Source of the DNA: Akkermansiaceae bacterium
Lineage (GTDB): Bacteria; Verrucomicrobiota; Verrucomicrobiia; Verrucomicrobiales; Akkermansiaceae
NCBI GenBank assembly: GCA_023301765.1
Contig: JALZUC010000058.1
Location: 1 to 45,809, forward strand
DNA length: 45,809 bases
Direction: 5' to 3'
Of this stretch, positions 33,768 to 45,563 are shown in pieces. Both the position numbers and the translations under genes were made by a program. The notes beneath the pieces are model-generated. The model was not told where the DNA came from and made no database searches. It saw nothing but the letters and a program-made list of their open reading frames with translations. How positions within the stretch are numbered: the stretch's first letter is position 1; each line of letters opens with the position of its first letter.

Positions 33768-34706
33768 TTATGGGCGAGGAGTAGTGATACTCTTCGAGAA
33801 ATGCTTACCATGCTCACGAATTAATTTAGCACGGTCAATACCACTTCTCTTAGCGAGAGTGAGCCCTTGATCAGTTAAAACAGTGATACTAATATCTACA
33901 CCTACAATAGTCCCGCCACGCACTTGATCTTCTGTGAGATTAGAATTATTGGGGAATTGAATGTTACCATCAAAATCAATACCTGTTTCTGACATGGTAA
34001 ACTCCTGTAGCTGGTTCCCTGGAGACATCGTAGCCCTCACTGTATGAGTAACTGGAGCACTCCCACTATTTACAGTTACCTCAACGAGAAAAGTAACTGA
34101 AAATTCATAGATGTTTTCTACAAGAAAGTTCTCAGAGGTAAAGTCTTGTTCATCGGTAAACTGACCAGTATACGCCTGCTCAAGATCATCCTCTGCAAGT
34201 AAGTGGGTAAATGCTTCATCCGGATTAATCAGGTGACGATAGAGTGAAAATACGGCATGCGTGTCATCCCCTCCAGTGGTGATCTGATCTCGGTAAACAA
34301 GACGGTAGCTCACTGCCGAAACGTCACCACCCAAATCATCAGCTCCACCAATATCACCATTATAACGATCAGTCGCTCCAGTGAAAAAGATTAAGCGACA
34401 AGTATTAGGAATCTCTCTCCCAGAAGGCCCCTGAAGGTTACTCGTCTCTTCACCAGCATAGAGCCACTCATGATTACTCCCGCCTTTACGAAGAACAATA
34501 CCCTCAAAGTCTTTCGCAATAGTACTAATCGCCTCTTTCGCCTGACGTGATGCGCGTACTTGATTACGGCTGTCACGGAAAGTATCCATGGAAATACCAG
34601 TCAAGAAGATTAGCACACCCAATAGGATAATCGTAATAGTCATAGCTACCAGAAGCTCCACAAGCGTGAATCCTGGTTTTGTGGACTTAAATTTCTTAAT
34701 ATTCAT
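33768..34706 (-). CDS. prepilin-like protein (PulJ-like; Verru_Chthon cassette C type)
   Basis: A 312-residue protein with a type IV prepilin N-terminus: basic leader, cleavage site PG/FTLVELLVAM (Gly12/Phe13, Glu17 at +5) and one membrane helix. The region after it (RQAKEAISTIAKDFEG, NTCRLIFFTG, VSYRLVYRDQ) resembles minor pseudopilins of the PulJ type and, from memory, the Verru_Chthon cassette protein C family. It is the last of three prepilin genes read in one direction. It is likely assembled in the envelope after cleavage by a prepilin peptidase that is not in this window. Confidence 0.7.
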   Translation of the reverse strand: MNIKKFKSTKPGFTLVELLVAMTITIILLGVLIFLTGISMDTFRDSRNQVRASRQAKEAISTIAKDFEGIVLRKGGSNHEWLYAGEETSNLQGPSGREIPNTCRLIFFTGATDRYNGDIGGADDLGGDVSAVSYRLVYRDQITTGGDDTHAVFSLYRHLINPDEAFTHLLAEDDLEQAYTGQFTDEQDFTSENFLVENIYEFSVTFLVEVTVNSGSAPVTHTVRATMSPGNQLQEFTMSETGIDFDGNIQFPNNSNLTEDQVRGGTIVGVDISITVLTDQGLTLAKRSGIDRAKLIREHGKHFSKSITTPRP

Positions 34707-34742
34707 CAGTTAAATTATTTATAAGTTACTACCGCTCAAGAA

Positions 34743-35468
34743 CTAACGGCGCACCGCAAGATTCCCAGTAAAGACTGCTTTACCGGGCCTATCAGGATCA
34801 AATGTGTTTCTAATGTAAGGAACCAAACTACTCTCCATTACAAAGAATTCTACCTGCATAGCTATCACAGCATCAGGGTAGCTAGCATGGTCACTTACTG
34901 TATTAGGAGGCCTCTGACCACGAATAGTACCAGGTTGGTCACTCACCTCTAACTCACCGTCATCATTAAATATAAGCTGCGTCATACGGACATAGAAGAC
35001 TCGGCCTTCTACTACACGTGGAATAAGCTCCTCATCGACTTGGGGGTCACCAAGACGCCGCACTACAGATTGAATAACAAAAGTTTCACCTGGGATGTCA
35101 TTATCTCCAGCTGCAATTGGCATAAGTGTGCCATCTTCACGCACATTGTTTGGATCTCCACGGTATTGATAAATTAACACCATATTATCGTTTCCTACTG
35201 CAGTCTCCACTGACCCTTCAATCCAAGTGAATGCTTTTTCAAAAGCAGTAGTAAACTGGGACTCCCCCGGACGAAGCACTGAGAGTTCTGCTTCTAGAGA
35301 ACTGGAGAGCCGGTTCGCCTCCTTATAGGAAATAGACTTACGCACTCCCTGTACAGCGGGCCCGAAAGCAGCCAAAAACGCTGTCACCATGACGGCAATA
35401 ATACCCATAGCGATTACTGTCTCTACGAGAGTAAAACCACAGTTTTTTATGTTACGATTAATTTTCAT
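34743..35468 (-). CDS. prepilin-like protein (PulI-like; Verru_Chthon cassette B type)
   Basis: A 241-residue protein with the prepilin signal CG/FTLVETVIAM (Gly11/Phe12, Glu16 at +5) and a single membrane helix. The soluble part (KEANRLSSSLEAELSVLRPG, LIYQYRGDP, GETFVIQSVVRRLGD, VIAMQVEFFVM) is probably a beta-rich pseudopilin head. The order in the cassette and the features fit the Verru_Chthon cassette protein B family, as I recall it. It is 36 bases from the next prepilin gene. Confidence 0.7.
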   Translation of the reverse strand: MKINRNIKNCGFTLVETVIAMGIIAVMVTAFLAAFGPAVQGVRKSISYKEANRLSSSLEAELSVLRPGESQFTTAFEKAFTWIEGSVETAVGNDNMVLIYQYRGDPNNVREDGTLMPIAAGDNDIPGETFVIQSVVRRLGDPQVDEELIPRVVEGRVFYVRMTQLIFNDDGELEVSDQPGTIRGQRPPNTVSDHASYPDAVIAMQVEFFVMESSLVPYIRNTFDPDRPGKAVFTGNLAVRR

Positions 35469-35547
35469 CTTAAATGTTAAGTTCCTTAGCTTGTTAGCTT
35501 AGTATGTTGGTATTGATTATTTACGAAAATATTAAATTAGAAGTTTA

Positions 35548-36282
35548 TTAAAACTCATCTCCATTATCGATATCATCTGGAATTTCCATTTGATCTGGAT
35601 GGCGGAATGTTGAGGTAGTGCCTTTCCTCCAGACAACAAACCCACCAAAGTTTGCCACGCCACTTCCGGACGTAACCCTAGGGGCTGTTGCCCCAGGAGG
35701 CCTACTACCTGCCCCTACGATAAAACTGGCACCTGCATTAGCAGAGATACCTTCCGCGTTAAACTCGTAGTAAAAATAATCCCCAGAGAGGTTAGAGTTA
35801 GCACCTCCAGAAGTATCCGCACTAGAAAAAATCTCATGATTTGCTGATGGAATATCACCGGAACCCATTTGATGATTTAATAAACTATACTCCTGACTTA
35901 GAAAAACTCCTTGCGGCAAGTAAATACCACGGCTAGCGGCTACCCAATCTCCAGACTCTGACTCAAATGCTACCATCATATAGCGTAGATACCTTTCCTC
36001 ATCATCAGGGTCTGCACTGATTAAAACTCGAGCATTAGTACCTGATGCAGAAGCTACTGTGCGCGCTTCAGCAAATACACCCTCAGCGAGCGGTATTCCT
36101 GCTGTGACACCGCTTGATTTAGATACGTTTTTGAGGCCTACCGCGCCTACGGTGAGTAAAACACCAATAATAGTGATAACTACCAAAAGCTCCACGAGAG
36201 TAAAGGCAGCAAGAGAACTACAACGGTTAAATTTTCCATGTAGATTATGCATACTGGTATTGCTAGAAGAAATATTATTCAT
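35548..36282 (-). CDS. prepilin-like protein (GspH-like; Verru_Chthon cassette D type)
   Basis: A 244-residue protein with a prepilin motif AA/FTLVELLVVI (Ala26/Phe27, Glu31 at +5). The residue before the cut is Ala instead of the near-universal Gly. Conserved-looking parts are ARTVASASGTNARVLISADP, ERYLRYMMVAFES and WVAASRGIYLPQGVFL, which agree with my recollection of cassette protein D. The start is either ATG 36282 or ATG 36252. It heads the three-gene cassette. A 9-bp hairpin lies in its upstream region at 36314-36337. Confidence 0.68.
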   Translation of the reverse strand: MNNISSSNTSMHNLHGKFNRCSSLAAFTLVELLVVITIIGVLLTVGAVGLKNVSKSSGVTAGIPLAEGVFAEARTVASASGTNARVLISADPDDEERYLRYMMVAFESESGDWVAASRGIYLPQGVFLSQEYSLLNHQMGSGDIPSANHEIFSSADTSGGANSNLSGDYFYYEFNAEGISANAGASFIVGAGSRPPGATAPRVTSGSGVANFGGFVVWRKGTTSTFRHPDQMEIPDDIDNGDEF

Positions 36283-37635: not shown

Positions 37636-38763
37636 CTAACTAGCAGCCCTTAGCTTCTTAATAGCAGCCAAGCGGTTTTTAACTTCTAATTTGATATAGA
37701 TATTTTCAAGATGTTTCTCAACGGTCCTCTTACTTATTGTTAGAGCATCAGAAATTTCCTGACTAGATTCATCCGCAAGCATTAATGTCGCTATCTCAGA
37801 CTCTCTACGTGTAAATCTAGACTTCTGCTCTTCATTAAGCTTCTGGTATGGTGAATTTTCACTAGAACAAATTAATAACCCTCCTGCCCCAGCTCGCTCA
37901 AGGTAAACTGCAGCCTCTAGCTCACAGCCCTTCGTTCCAAACTTCTGGGTATAGGCTATTTCTCTAGGGAAAATACGTGCATCATTTTTCACCATATTTT
38001 CAACCCAAAGGCTTAATTCATCTTTAAGCGCCCATCTACCTTCAATTTTTTCACCTAGCCTTGTGCGGCCCAAGATTAGTTCTGAAGTTTTATCCACATC
38101 CCAGAGCTTAGCTCCATCACTTGAAATTACACTAACTCCTGTAACCTGTTTTGTCTTACGCGTCTCTTGAAGCGTCTTAATGAGGTTAGAGCAACTTCTC
38201 ATCTGAGCAATTTTCTTTGCTGCTGCACGTATATGATCTCGGATGTAGGCTAAGTCTTTTCTATCATCTGCCGCTAAACCTTGCTGCTTCATTCCTAATG
38301 TTAGGATTACAGCTCCACTTTCTGAGTTATAAGCTTGGAGATTAATTGTATCACGTAGACCTGCTGGCTCCATTCCATGTTGAAAATAAGCAGTTTTAGC
38401 TAATTCCGACTGCGAAGCAATTTCACTGAGAAGGATGATATCATCACACTCCTCCTCACGATACCTCTTTATCACTCTGCGTAGAGCGTTAATTTCTGTC
38501 GCCCCCCCCAGCTTATCATGACTAGATGGAATATCAGAATCACTATGAATACTACTCCAGAGCAATTTACCTTCGGCCTTATCAACCTCTAACCATGAAA
38601 TCTCCGCAGATTTATAAATACTACTGACCCCTTTAACTACGACATCAGTCAAAGCAACCAAATTTTTACAGGATTGAATTGCTAAACATAATGACCTTAC
38701 AGCATTCTCAGTCGCCAATCGCTGCGGTTCTACGCAACTTTTGTTATCTATCTCATCTAGCAT
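37636..38763 (-). CDS. LuxR-type transcriptional regulator
   Basis: A 375-residue DNA-binding protein. The last 60 residues form a LuxR/NarL helix-turn-helix: FTRRESEIATLMLADESSQE then ISDALTISKRTVEKHLENIY, with the typical T-V-E-K-H recognition helix. The N-terminal 300 residues carry no clear receiver Asp; the spacing suggests one or two GAF- or PAS-like sensor domains, but that is a guess. It lies 55 bases downstream of menF and may be co-transcribed with it. Signal and targets are unknown. Confidence 0.8.
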   Translation of the reverse strand: MLDEIDNKSCVEPQRLATENAVRSLCLAIQSCKNLVALTDVVVKGVSSIYKSAEISWLEVDKAEGKLLWSSIHSDSDIPSSHDKLGGATEINALRRVIKRYREEECDDIILLSEIASQSELAKTAYFQHGMEPAGLRDTINLQAYNSESGAVILTLGMKQQGLAADDRKDLAYIRDHIRAAAKKIAQMRSCSNLIKTLQETRKTKQVTGVSVISSDGAKLWDVDKTSELILGRTRLGEKIEGRWALKDELSLWVENMVKNDARIFPREIAYTQKFGTKGCELEAAVYLERAGAGGLLICSSENSPYQKLNEEQKSRFTRRESEIATLMLADESSQEISDALTISKRTVEKHLENIYIKLEVKNRLAAIKKLRAAS

Positions 38764-41791: not shown

Positions 41792-41914
41792 ACAGATATC
41801 GTCATTAGCAATATATAGCAGCGCTATCTCTAATCCAGCGTAGTAGCCACACCTCTAACACACTTGCACTCAGATAGATTACTAGCTACTACTTTACATT
41901 AATCTCTCATAAAA

Positions 41915-41945
41915 AAACGGCGGCCACCGAAGTGCACCGCCGTTT
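41915..41945. terminator. bidirectional intrinsic terminator
   Basis: AAACGGCGG and CCGCCGTTT enclose an inner CAC-CGAA-GTG stem. It lies between convergent dnaG and the coiled-coil gene. The A-run at 41911-41917 gives a T-run on the minus strand; on the plus strand the following bases are TTTAATTAAATT. Confidence 0.85.
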
Positions 41946-41968
41946 AATTAAATTTATTCAGTATCTCT

Positions 41969-42781
41969 TTAGTTAGTTACAGGCTTACTAAGTACTACAG
42001 CATCACCTGATTGAATCACCATTCCAGGAGCTAATGTCTTGTAGTCAATATCAGCAATGATACGTGTGCCTTCAATAGCATTAATTTTAAGATTTCCAAC
42101 ATAAGCAGATCCACGCTTAATAATAAGCTTAGAAGCACTAGTTACAGGCATATTACTCGGAATACTGACGGTTACAAATCCCCAGTCATGATTAACTGCA
42201 CTAACGCGGCCCTGGAGTGCATTTGATTTGATACGGCTTGCACGCCTGCTAACACGCTCATTAAGATCAGTAATTTGAGTTTCACTAGAGCTAGCACGCC
42301 TATCAGCAACTTCAACGTTGGTATTGAGCTCCTCTAAATCTTTGTTAGCTTGCTGAAGATCCCCTTCGAGTTTACTGATAAGGCCTGGAATTTCGTCAAG
42401 TTCAACATCATCACCCACTTCAGATGCAAAATTCTTTTTAATCTGAACAATTAGATCTTGAATTTCTTGAAGTCTCTCTTTTTGTCCAGCAATTTTACTA
42501 CTCCACGTGGCTGCCTGCTTTTTAGCGAGGTCTGCATTATTATTAGTATTGTCACGGCTGGACTCTAGTTCAGCAAGCTCTTGCTTAGCAGTTTTGAGTG
42601 CATCCTCAACTTCGTCAGCCTCTTTACCCGCTTTCTTAATGTTTTTCTTACGAGTTTCATTTTCTGAATCAAGCTGCTTGCGCGCTGTCTGCAGATCTTT
42701 AAATTTGTTCATACTATCGTATGAGAACCACCCGGCGGCGGCGATTGCGACGATTGCAATGATGTAAGTAATAGCTTTCAT
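41969..42781 (-). CDS. membrane-anchored coiled-coil protein, paralogue 1
   Basis: A 270-residue protein I cannot name. It has an N-terminal membrane helix (ITYIIAIVAIAAAGWF), a coiled coil over about residues 25-185 broken near residue 125, and a C-terminal globular part of about 75 residues (GRVSAVNHDWGFVTVSI, LIIKRGSAYVGNLKINAIEG, ADIDYKTLAPGMVIQSGDAV). The last part is probably beta-rich. The same architecture and C-terminal pattern occur in the gene immediately upstream (42842-43648). It likely faces the periplasm. Ends at the terminator at 41915-41945. Confidence 0.75.
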   Translation of the reverse strand: MKAITYIIAIVAIAAAGWFSYDSMNKFKDLQTARKQLDSENETRKKNIKKAGKEADEVEDALKTAKQELAELESSRDNTNNNADLAKKQAATWSSKIAGQKERLQEIQDLIVQIKKNFASEVGDDVELDEIPGLISKLEGDLQQANKDLEELNTNVEVADRRASSSETQITDLNERVSRRASRIKSNALQGRVSAVNHDWGFVTVSIPSNMPVTSASKLIIKRGSAYVGNLKINAIEGTRIIADIDYKTLAPGMVIQSGDAVVLSKPVTN

Positions 42782-42841
42782 AGTGCTTAAAATGGATGTG
42801 ATAATTAAATGTGTAGGTCGGCTGCTTGATCTATAACAGTT

Positions 42842-43648
42842 CTATCGAGTAGCGGTAGTGCTGGTATTAGCTTCTACTAATGCACGTTCAGCGACTACTG
42901 AATCTCCAGCTTGAAGTGTTACGCCCTCTGCTACTGAATCAAGTATGATGTCAGCAGATGCTCTGCCAGATTCTACGGCTGTTACTTTGAGCTTACCAAT
43001 GAGTTCATTTCCACGGAGAACATCAAGATTGGAGCCACTTACTACGCCCTGCTTGTCACCTGCTGAAAGAATCACAAACCCCCAGTTACGGTAGACCGAG
43101 CTGATTTTGGTGCGTAATGTTGGGAATGATTTCCCTGTACTCTGGAGGTCAATTAAGTTACGAATACTAGCAATTCGATTTTCAGCATTTTCACTACGTT
43201 GAAGAAGATTGGCAAGAGTTGCTTTACTACTATCAATCTCACTAGCTGCTGCGCTGAGCTCAGTGCGCATGCGCTTGACTTTGGGAATTAGGTCAGAAGG
43301 GTTAGGTAGCTCCTTCAGAGTCTCATCCCCAGCCGCCATTTCTAATTCGTTTGCTGCGTGTTCTGATTTGAATGTAGTTACGCTTTTCTCAGCAGCCTCA
43401 AAATTCGCTGTAGCTTCTTCCAGCTCTCCTTGGACTACTTTGGCAGTTGCGATTTTCTCCTCCTTTTCAGCTTCAGCACTTGTAAGGCGTTCCTGCTCCT
43501 CACCCAGCTCTTTTTCCGTAGAGGTCTGTAATTTCAAGGCCGTTTTGTTAATATCAATCTCGCCTTGATACGCTTCCTTATTTTTAAATGCAACGAATGC
43601 TGCAATAGCAAGTAATACTGCTGCTATGGATCCAAATACTGTAGACAT
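42842..43648 (-). CDS. membrane-anchored coiled-coil protein, paralogue 2
   Basis: A 268-residue protein of the same kind as its neighbour: membrane helix (VFGSIAAVLLAIAAFVAF), acidic coiled coil over about 25-190, and a C-terminal part reading TKISSVYRNWGFVILSAGDK, LIGKLKVTAVESGRASADII and GVTLQAGDSVVAE. WGFV, the K-L-K/I-N pattern before V/IE, ADI and GD-V are shared with paralogue 1. The function is unknown. The two genes are 60 bases apart on one strand and probably arose by duplication. It has no Shine-Dalgarno sequence. Confidence 0.75.
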   Translation of the reverse strand: MSTVFGSIAAVLLAIAAFVAFKNKEAYQGEIDINKTALKLQTSTEKELGEEQERLTSAEAEKEEKIATAKVVQGELEEATANFEAAEKSVTTFKSEHAANELEMAAGDETLKELPNPSDLIPKVKRMRTELSAAASEIDSSKATLANLLQRSENAENRIASIRNLIDLQSTGKSFPTLRTKISSVYRNWGFVILSAGDKQGVVSGSNLDVLRGNELIGKLKVTAVESGRASADIILDSVAEGVTLQAGDSVVAERALVEANTSTTATR

Positions 43649-43838
43649 AATAGTAAGTTAATGTGGTGAAATCGCTACGATTTCGGTGTGATGAAACAAA
43701 CTACTGTCTTATAGGGGGGCGCGGCAATAGCAAACTTGATCAATTTTACTCTTGCACATCTGAGCCATTACCCTTTTGAGACTTCACAGCGTAATTATAC
43801 ATTGTAATTTAGGTCCCCTCAGACGCCAAATATCTATC

Positions 43839-45563
43839 ATGAAGACTATTCTCCGCATTTTCTCTTACCTCGGTAAGTATCCTAAGCTCGCTACCGCCCA
43901 GCTTCTTTGCGCCATTGTAATGACACTTATGCTTCTGGCATTCCCTATTATAACGGGGCGCGTGAAGCGAGAGGTGATTGATGATGGTGCAATTGGATTA
44001 CTTCTCCCATACATCATCATTGTCTTTGTGGCATTCTTTGCCCGCGATTTCTTTAATTATTTACGTATTCTAATAAATAACACCTTCGAGCAGAAAGCAG
44101 TTTATGATCTACGCTCAGAATTATATAATAAACTCCAAAATCTGCGCTTAAAGTGGTTCGATGAACGTCGTACGGGTGACATCATGACACGTGTAGCGGA
44201 AGACGTTCCCCAAATGGAACGGGTTATGATTGATGGTATTGAACAAGGCCTTATCGCAGCCCTCCAAATTATAGCCGTCAGTATCTTCCTCTTTACCCGT
44301 TCCCCTATCCTAGCGTTATCAGCACTCGCTCCTATTCCACTACTTATTTTGGGAGCATGGCTCTATACGCGCCACGCAGCTGCACGTTATCGTATCGTTA
44401 GAAAAGCGACAGGGGAAATGAACGCAGCTCTGCATGACAATATCGCAGGGATACGGCAGATCAAATCCTACGCAGCAGAAAATGAAGAGCACGCAGCATT
44501 TAATGAGACCTCGGCCAAAGTAAGCACTGCTAATCTTAGAGTCATGAAAGCATGGGCCCTCTACTCACCCAGCATGAGCTTCTTTAACTCGATAGGCTAC
44601 ACCCTCGTATTAGGAGTTGGAGCTTGGGAAATCCACCACGGTAGAATGGGATCAGATGTACTCTTGGAGTTTTTCACCATCATATGGGCGCTCTATGAAC
44701 CAATGGGCCGCCTCCACCAACTTAACCAAATGACGCAGTCATCACGCGCCGCCGCTGAACGGGTCTTTAGTATCCTAGATGAAGCTAATGAACCTCACGC
44801 ACACGATGGCAAACCTCTCAAATTACCTGTGCGTGGGCACGTGCAATTTACAAATCTTAACTTTTCTTACTCAGCTAAACAAACCCTCACCAATATTACT
44901 ATAGAGGCGAAACCCGGGCAAACTATTGCCCTCGTTGGATCCTCTGGCGCAGGTAAATCAACCATCGTAAATCTACTCTGCCGCTTCTATGAATACGAAG
45001 ACGGATCTATCACCATTGATGGCACAGAGCTTAACACCACCAATAAAACATCACTACGCTCAGCCATTGGTTACGTCACACAAGACCCCTTTTTGTTTAA
45101 TAACTCTGTCAGGGAAAACCTCTATCTCGCGCAGCGTGATGCTACTGATGAGGCCTTGTGGTCAGCACTCTCCTCTGCCAATGCAGAGAGCTTCGTTCGT
45201 GCTCTCCCAGAAGGCCTTGACACAGTAGTCGGTGAGCGTGGCGTAAAACTTTCAGGAGGTGAACGGCAGCGCTTATCCATTGCCAGAGCTCTACTCAAAA
45301 ATCCTCCCATACTCTTGTTAGATGAAGCTACCGCATCAGTAGATAGCGAAACTGAAATACTCATTCAGGAAGCTTTAGATCGACTTATGGAAAGCCGCAC
45401 TGCCTTTGTCATCGCCCACCGCCTCTCCACTATCCGAGATGCAGATGTTATTCATGTGTTAGATAAAGGCCAGATCATTGAAACAGGAACGCACAGAGAG
45501 CTCCTCGCAATGGGTGGTAAATACACTAGACTCTCTAAACAATCGTTTTTAGCTGATAAGTAA
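43839..45563 (+). CDS. ABC transporter, fused permease and ATPase (MsbA-like)
   Basis: A 574-residue half-transporter: six membrane helices in the first 310 residues, then an ATPase domain with Walker A VGSSGAGKS (about 366-374), signature LSGGERQR (about 471), Walker B ILLLDEATAS and the H-loop IAHRLST. The intracellular-loop motif DERRTGDIMTRVAEDV is typical of MsbA/multidrug exporters. Such proteins flip lipid A core or export lipids or drugs; which one cannot be decided here. I chose ATG 43839 (MKTILRIFSYLGKYP); an in-frame upstream start at 43776 adds 21 residues with no support. Confidence 0.9.
   Translation: MKTILRIFSYLGKYPKLATAQLLCAIVMTLMLLAFPIITGRVKREVIDDGAIGLLLPYIIIVFVAFFARDFFNYLRILINNTFEQKAVYDLRSELYNKLQNLRLKWFDERRTGDIMTRVAEDVPQMERVMIDGIEQGLIAALQIIAVSIFLFTRSPILALSALAPIPLLILGAWLYTRHAAARYRIVRKATGEMNAALHDNIAGIRQIKSYAAENEEHAAFNETSAKVSTANLRVMKAWALYSPSMSFFNSIGYTLVLGVGAWEIHHGRMGSDVLLEFFTIIWALYEPMGRLHQLNQMTQSSRAAAERVFSILDEANEPHAHDGKPLKLPVRGHVQFTNLNFSYSAKQTLTNITIEAKPGQTIALVGSSGAGKSTIVNLLCRFYEYEDGSITIDGTELNTTNKTSLRSAIGYVTQDPFLFNNSVRENLYLAQRDATDEALWSALSSANAESFVRALPEGLDTVVGERGVKLSGGERQRLSIARALLKNPPILLLDEATASVDSETEILIQEALDRLMESRTAFVIAHRLSTIRDADVIHVLDKGQIIETGTHRELLAMGGKYTRLSKQSFLADK

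Follow-up and report, generated by a model that had tools for sequence, protein, structure and literature searches.

A tandem pair of paralogous membrane-anchored coiled-coil proteins with a predicted C-terminal barrel in the Akkermansiaceae

Organisation and paralogy of the gene pair

Two adjacent genes, P2 and P1, are encoded on the minus strand of the window, the whole 45,809-nucleotide stretch analysed here, which is contig C58 (JALZUC010000058.1) of the 2.46-Mb, 97.8% complete genome of an Akkermansiaceae bacterium (GCA_023301765.1). The pair and its surroundings comprise the following features:

43776..45563, plus strand: MsbA-like ABC exporter gene, divergent neighbour of the pair (TIGR02203; synteny); likely true start, read by eye, ATG at 43839
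42842..43648, minus strand: P2, the upstream gene, 268 amino acids; membrane helix, helical hairpin/coiled coil and C-terminal barrel (ORF, ortholog alignment, model)
43586..43642, minus strand: predicted membrane helix of P2, residues 3-21 (Kyte-Doolittle maximum 2.45)
43316..43582, minus strand: first long helix of P2 after the membrane, residues 23-111 (predicted secondary structure)
43136..43291, minus strand: second helix of P2, residues 120-171, past a proline-marked break conserved in the ortholog alignment (model)
42884..43120, minus strand: predicted C-terminal six-strand barrel domain of P2 (model; 75 residues superpose on the FlgT C-domain with Z 11.3 and rmsd 2.2)
42782..42841, minus strand: P2-P1 intergenic gap, 60 bp
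41969..42781, minus strand: P1, the downstream gene, 270 amino acids, with the architecture of P2 (ORF, ortholog alignment, model)
42725..42781, minus strand: predicted membrane helix of P1, residues 1-19 (Kyte-Doolittle maximum 1.84)
42419..42718, minus strand: first long helix of P1, residues 22-121 (model)
42221..42391, minus strand: second helix of P1, residues 131-187 (model)
41978..42226, minus strand: predicted C-terminal six-strand barrel domain of P1 (model; 70 residues superpose on an F1-ATPase N-terminal barrel with Z 10.8 and rmsd 2.2)
41910..41950, minus strand: likely intrinsic terminator 3' of P1 (inverted repeat and T-run; fold z -3.65)

The lengths, coordinates and strand given for both genes in a first-pass annotation agree with the ORF list and the sequences. 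Sharing a strand, separated by 60 bp and followed by a hairpin, P2 and P1 likely form a single transcription unit. None of 200 shuffled sequences was as stable as this hairpin, which was overlooked by a simple terminator scanner and found through its inverted repeat and folding, and promoter-like sites near the pair occur at chance level (six versus 4.7 in shuffles). The convergent gene beyond the terminator reads by eye as dnaG. The divergent neighbour scores 442.7 bits against the TIGR02203 MsbA model, below the cut-off of 602. Elsewhere on the minus strand of the window, three successive prepilin-like genes (33768-36282) show weak, sub-cut-off matches to the Verru_Chthon cassette proteins C, B and D, and a 375-amino-acid protein (37636-38763) combines a LuxR-type DNA-binding C-terminus with an N-terminal part that has no assignment.

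P1 and P2 are full-length paralogs whose similarity exceeds chance. Paralogy with a common C-terminal domain, as proposed in the first-pass annotation, is borne out by BLASTP of the C-terminal 103 amino acids (E 1e-16, 32% identity), by a search of the own genome, in which P2 retrieves P1 over residues 8-258 (E 7.1e-14), and by hhalign comparison of profiles built from 30 orthologs each (probability 99.9, E 1.9e-33, 250 columns). The motif order claimed to be common to both proteins is likewise found, as WGFV, LKINAIE, ADI and GDAV in P1 and WGFV, LKVTAVE, ADI and GDSV in P2. As the best-aligning part is the barrel domain, the coiled coil alone is insufficient to account for the similarity. 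Matches to SMC, Rad50, myosin, tropomyosin and similar proteins in Pfam, NCBIfam and the PDB cover the helices only, fall below the cut-off where curated and are attributed to coiled-coil chance. All Pfam and NCBIfam matches of P1 and P2 lie below the curated cut-offs, and no model in either library names them, in keeping with the first-pass annotation, which did not recognise the family. No literature on the pair was found in open-licence papers.

Distribution, gene order and age of the duplication

Matches to P2 occur in 93 of the 97 genomes and 15 of the 16 genera of the window's family, f1, taken to be the Akkermansiaceae (E 0.01 or better), and those to P1 likewise in 93/97 genomes and 15/16 genera at the same threshold; because P1 and P2 cross-match, the intact pair was counted apart from single matches. 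The order P2-P1 on one strand, with one gene of each type, is found in 37 of 38 loci, with gaps of 28-142 bp (median 45). These loci comprise the window, L009-L037 and eight from family f2 and genus g3, and represent 37 genomes, L078 and L129 belonging to one genome. At the sole exception, L019, the contig ends 245 bp past P2. Akkermansiaceae/Verrucomicrobiales relatives of P2 share 68% (L004) or 50-55% (L005-L008) identity with it. Two genomes of genus g5 (G004 and G017, about 1.5 Mb each) each give only a single weak match to the pair; in genomes this small, one partner may have been lost or have diverged strongly. The P2 orthologs of family f2 (L128:1398-2480 and L098:9493-10587) carry long C-terminal tails of repeated SDPFGAPA-like units, and a similar DPF motif occurs at the end of the Akkermansiaceae P2 orthologs at L031 and L067.

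Across the Verrucomicrobiota, the P2 profile matches 132 of 288 genomes and 79 of 152 genera (E 0.001), although the weakest of these matches may be coiled-coil noise, and most other members of the phylum with the gene carry one copy. The contig scan reaching beyond the phylum used P2 as its only query. A search for carriage of the pair on plasmids gave no match.

A maximum-likelihood tree was built from 57 full-length relatives, hand-picked from the fetched loci. A split with support 98/99 sets every f1 and f2 sequence, along with one long-branch row from family f5, apart from the remaining genes, most of which are single-copy. The P2 sequences of f1 and f2 group together (91/91); the f1 P1 sequences form one group (94/94), and those of f2 branch from the same unresolved node. 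This is most simply explained by a single duplication that preceded the split of f1 and f2. The tandem copies of families f22 (100/98) and f19 (100/99) represent separate duplications, as each pair groups with itself, so that tandem duplication has recurred as if two copies were useful. The pair provides a clean example of a tandem duplication fixed as two distinct putative subunits, an event repeated separately in other families. The strict conservation of the tandem, together with the separate P1 and P2 clades, favours a putative heteromer.

The divergent MsbA-like gene lies upstream of the pair in 27 of the 29 genomes of L009-L037, and beside it in 58 of 61 loci, a count in which loci repeat genomes. 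The loci without this neighbour, L018/L046 and L033, are at contig ends. It is also absent at L112 (genus g3), where the flanking genes look by eye like dnaX and radC, and at L098 (f2), and it does not adjoin the single-copy relatives at the context loci examined. Clustering of the neighbours at 21 loci yielded no conserved operon partner, no family besides the target occurring in more than five.

Predicted fold and comparison with known systems

AlphaFold2 single-chain models of P2 (m21c0989bc943) and P1 (m1d1cb1a233c2) were built from 30-row alignments and have mean pLDDT values of 85.7 and 82.7, respectively. Helices are predicted at residues 2-111 and 120-171 of P2 and 2-121 and 131-187 of P1, followed in each case by six strands. 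The barrel block has a pLDDT of about 86-94 in both models, and the arrangement of helices versus barrel is uncertain, as the pTM is just 0.44-0.45 for both. The best VIA matches of the P2 barrel are to FlgT, namely 8z5n (Z 11.3, 75 residues, 2.2 Å) and 3w1e (Z 10.3), the two together covering 74-75 residues at 2.1-2.2 Å, with F1-ATPase barrels tied or nearly tied at a Z of about 10. For P1, the top VIA row is a Rad50 coiled coil (Z 11.0, 122 residues, 3.6 Å), a common helical arrangement, followed by an F1 barrel (Z 10.8) with many more below. Foldseek also recovers the FlgT C-domain for both P2 (E 1.2e-3) and P1 (E 1.1e-3). Both barrels are thus predicted to share one fold of the FlgT C-domain/F1-ATPase N-domain type, at Z scores of about 10-11. 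The structure prediction that the first-pass annotation had called for gives the two C-terminal domains one predicted fold, rather than unrelated families, the outcome which that annotation had named as refuting it. A barrel-domain sequence profile searched against the PDB gave nothing below E 0.14, and FlgT 3w1e was not among its matches.

According to PMC4446572, the FlgT C-domain shares its topology with the beta-barrel domain of periplasmic adaptors and is also similar to the N-domain of the F1 beta subunit. This likeness connects the FlgT, F1 and adaptor matches. The P1/P2 barrel has the fold of the six-stranded FlgT C-domain (PF16538) in the predicted models, and eight of 30 domains weakly match Pfam FlgT_C (best E 2.2e-4). 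P1 and P2, however, have a membrane anchor and coiled coil and are without the FlgT N and M domains; the P2 domain scores 13.8 bits against the FlgT_C cut-off of 27, and the full-length proteins are unmatched at E up to 1. The flagellin N domain, the sole flagellar marker searched, was not found in the 97.8% complete own genome (controls positive in 5/14). The likeness to the N-terminal barrel of F1/V1-ATPase, at a Z of about 10, is one of shared fold only, that barrel being a domain of a cytoplasmic enzyme whereas P1 and P2 have no ATPase domain.

The predicted anatomy of the two proteins, with an N-terminal membrane anchor, a long alpha-hairpin and a beta-barrel of FlgT-C topology, would suit that of EmrA (4tko) and MacA (4dk0), periplasmic adaptors of tripartite pumps. 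EmrA is the best Foldseek match of P1 (E 2.0e-4, 243 columns; TM 0.18, rmsd 28.8 Å) and MacA ranks 23rd (E 4.9e-3, 236 columns; TM 0.28, rmsd 15.3 Å), but the low TM-scores and high rmsd values mark these as a hairpin plus barrel loosely superposed, and the barrel is also matched by MreC, F1 and FlgT. P1 and P2 further differ from the adaptors in having no lipoyl domain, with no Pfam match to lipoyl or HlyD-type domains at E up to 1, and in a barrel that lies entirely C-terminal to the hairpin. EmrA is described in PMC4158417 as having no membrane-proximal domain. In the own genome, TolC-type proteins are encoded in four places and two weak HlyD-type matches lie next to TolC-type genes.

MreC consists of a membrane helix, a coiled coil and a periplasmic beta domain, in that order. 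P1 and P2 follow this order, and MreC (2j5u) is the third-ranked Foldseek match of P2 (E 6.3e-3), but they have one barrel only and are unmatched by Pfam MreC at E up to 1; of the 30 domains, one matches MreC in Pfam (E 0.024) and two in NCBIfam (best E 0.048). FtsB/DivIC and FtsL, small bitopic proteins with coiled coils, work as a heterodimer. DivIC is matched by six of 30 P2 orthologs (best E 0.0084), whereas P1 and P2 themselves are unmatched, are much longer and have the barrel in addition. PilN/PilO, Tol and Lpp roles were also considered, and no Pfam match pointed to any of them. P1 and P2 are not members of the FlgT, MreC, FtsB or HlyD families and fill none of these known roles by membership, since the genome has a separate, clear MreC (130.7 bits, C2:42098-42541), a separate locus that passes the DivIC cut-off, no flagellin match, and TolC-type proteins with two weak HlyD-type matches beside their genes.

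Barrel-domain relatives, membrane side and candidate roles

The barrel-domain profile detects four proteins in the own genome: P1, P2, a 228-amino-acid membrane protein encoded on C17 (E 3.3e-6) and one encoded on C32 (E 4.5e-4). The latter two represent further forms:

C32:9065-9802 (= L140:9068-9805; L150): barrel paralog flanked by rpsS (S19) and rplV (L22) within the S10 ribosomal operon
L139:9410-10096 (own C17), also at L141, L142 and L143 in f2: short membrane form with a membrane helix, a variable/proline-rich middle and the same barrel

The S10-operon paralogs (L140/L150, L148, L149, L151-L170, L172, L175 and L176) carry N-termini that look exported, and several of them also have a coiled coil. 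A profile of the C32 protein and three relatives matches 63 of 115 genomes at E 0.001, many of the matches being of P1/P2 type or other relatives. S19 and L22 flank the paralog in 26 of the 30 loci returned, which span nine families (f1, f2, f5, f6, f8, f20, f25, f28 and f30); of the other four, L174 and L177 show only L22 and S3, and L171 and L173 neither. An envelope protein encoded in the S10 ribosomal operon is unexpected and is perhaps a more striking find than the P1/P2 pair.

The first-pass annotation had the pair reaching into the periplasm, and the evidence on this point is divided. At most one K/R residue precedes the membrane helix in 30/30 P1 and 29/30 P2 orthologs, with one to five after it, although the invariant K2 of P1 can fall within the 19-residue helix window used for this count. 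From this distribution, the positive-inside rule would rather place P1 and P2 in the cytoplasm. The N-termini of the domain paralogs, read by eye, resemble signal peptides (L127, L133 and L175) or a lipobox (L125), which makes the periplasmic side likely, and several single-copy relatives, such as L110 and L114, carry K/R before the helix. Judged from these relatives, P1 and P2 are probably periplasmic, though the charge rule does not favour it. The opposite topology, a membrane coiled-coil pair with N-terminus out and C-terminus in that serves as a tethered scaffold inside the cell, would suit the charge distribution in the orthologs of both proteins and the occurrence of the same barrel fold in the cytoplasmic F1-ATPase, but is quite unlikely in view of the exported-looking domain paralogs, the K/R before the helix in single-copy relatives and the K2 kept by all P1 orthologs.

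The explanation tentatively favoured is an inner-membrane-anchored periplasmic hetero-oligomer, a reduced adaptor or scaffold in which the heteromer, the periplasmic side, the collar and the partner are putative. One old tandem duplication would have given the two subunits, each anchored in the inner membrane by its single N-terminal helix. A long helix would leave the membrane and turn at the conserved proline-containing break, from which the shorter helix would return to the six-stranded barrel. Bundling of the P1 helices with those of P2 may give a rod or tube, with the barrels packed next to each other to form a collar, and the complex, extending towards the wall or outer membrane, would hold or gate an inner-membrane partner; in f1 the likeliest candidate is the MsbA-like exporter encoded divergently. 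Of the elements of this picture, the paralogy, the gene order, the age of the duplication and the synteny are established by the sequence analysis, whereas the membrane helix and the fold are predictions. The main rival, credible but given less weight, is a plain tether or spacer that would act, without a transporter as partner, as a general strut from the inner membrane to the wall or outer membrane, the position of the MsbA-like gene reflecting shared promoter geography. Such a strut would fit a phylum-wide family mostly encoded by solitary genes whose neighbours are not widely conserved, a domain paralog whose place in the S10 operon is that of a growth-coupled structural product, and about 140 helical residues which, if opened to a rod, could by simple arithmetic span about 20 nm. 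It sits less easily with the divergent MsbA-like synteny, unbroken in the sampled part of f1, and with P1 and P2 themselves, which have neither a Pfam peptidoglycan-binding match nor a cysteine usable for a lipobox. An MreC-like role in cell elongation, as bitopic proteins with coiled coil and beta-barrel that organise wall synthesis beside MreC, would draw on the shared part order, the third-ranked 2j5u match and the few weak MreC domain matches; it is very unlikely, as the genome has its own MreC elsewhere, the FlgT and F1 barrels score higher and Pfam MreC matches neither protein.

A more far-reaching and rather unlikely proposal is that the hetero-pair beside the MsbA-like exporter and the single-copy, short-membrane and S10-operon forms together make up an envelope module of the Verrucomicrobiota's own, a phylum-specific trans-envelope adaptor/scaffold whose synthesis would be tied to ribosome production and growth rate. 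Spread through the phylum and nearly ubiquitous in f1, the unnamed family likely performs ordinary but important envelope work, including in gut Akkermansiaceae. A published transposon screen of Verrucomicrobium spinosum is reported to have yielded 100 essential proteins of unknown function (PMC12283558).

The insert in the S10 operon is not universal in the phylum. Among 30 loci found through S19, an insert of 575-801 bp is present in four, the S19 and L22 matches lie 25-129 bp apart in 11, and in the remaining 15 no L22 could be detected over 1.5 kb. At these 15 loci (L182, L184, L185, L187, L188, L190-L193, L196, L200, L201, L203, L206 and L211), other genes follow S19, and the S10 operon of these lineages seems to be broken at this point. 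The short membrane form at L141 sits between what are presumably an isochorismate-synthase-like gene and a TlyA-like gene.
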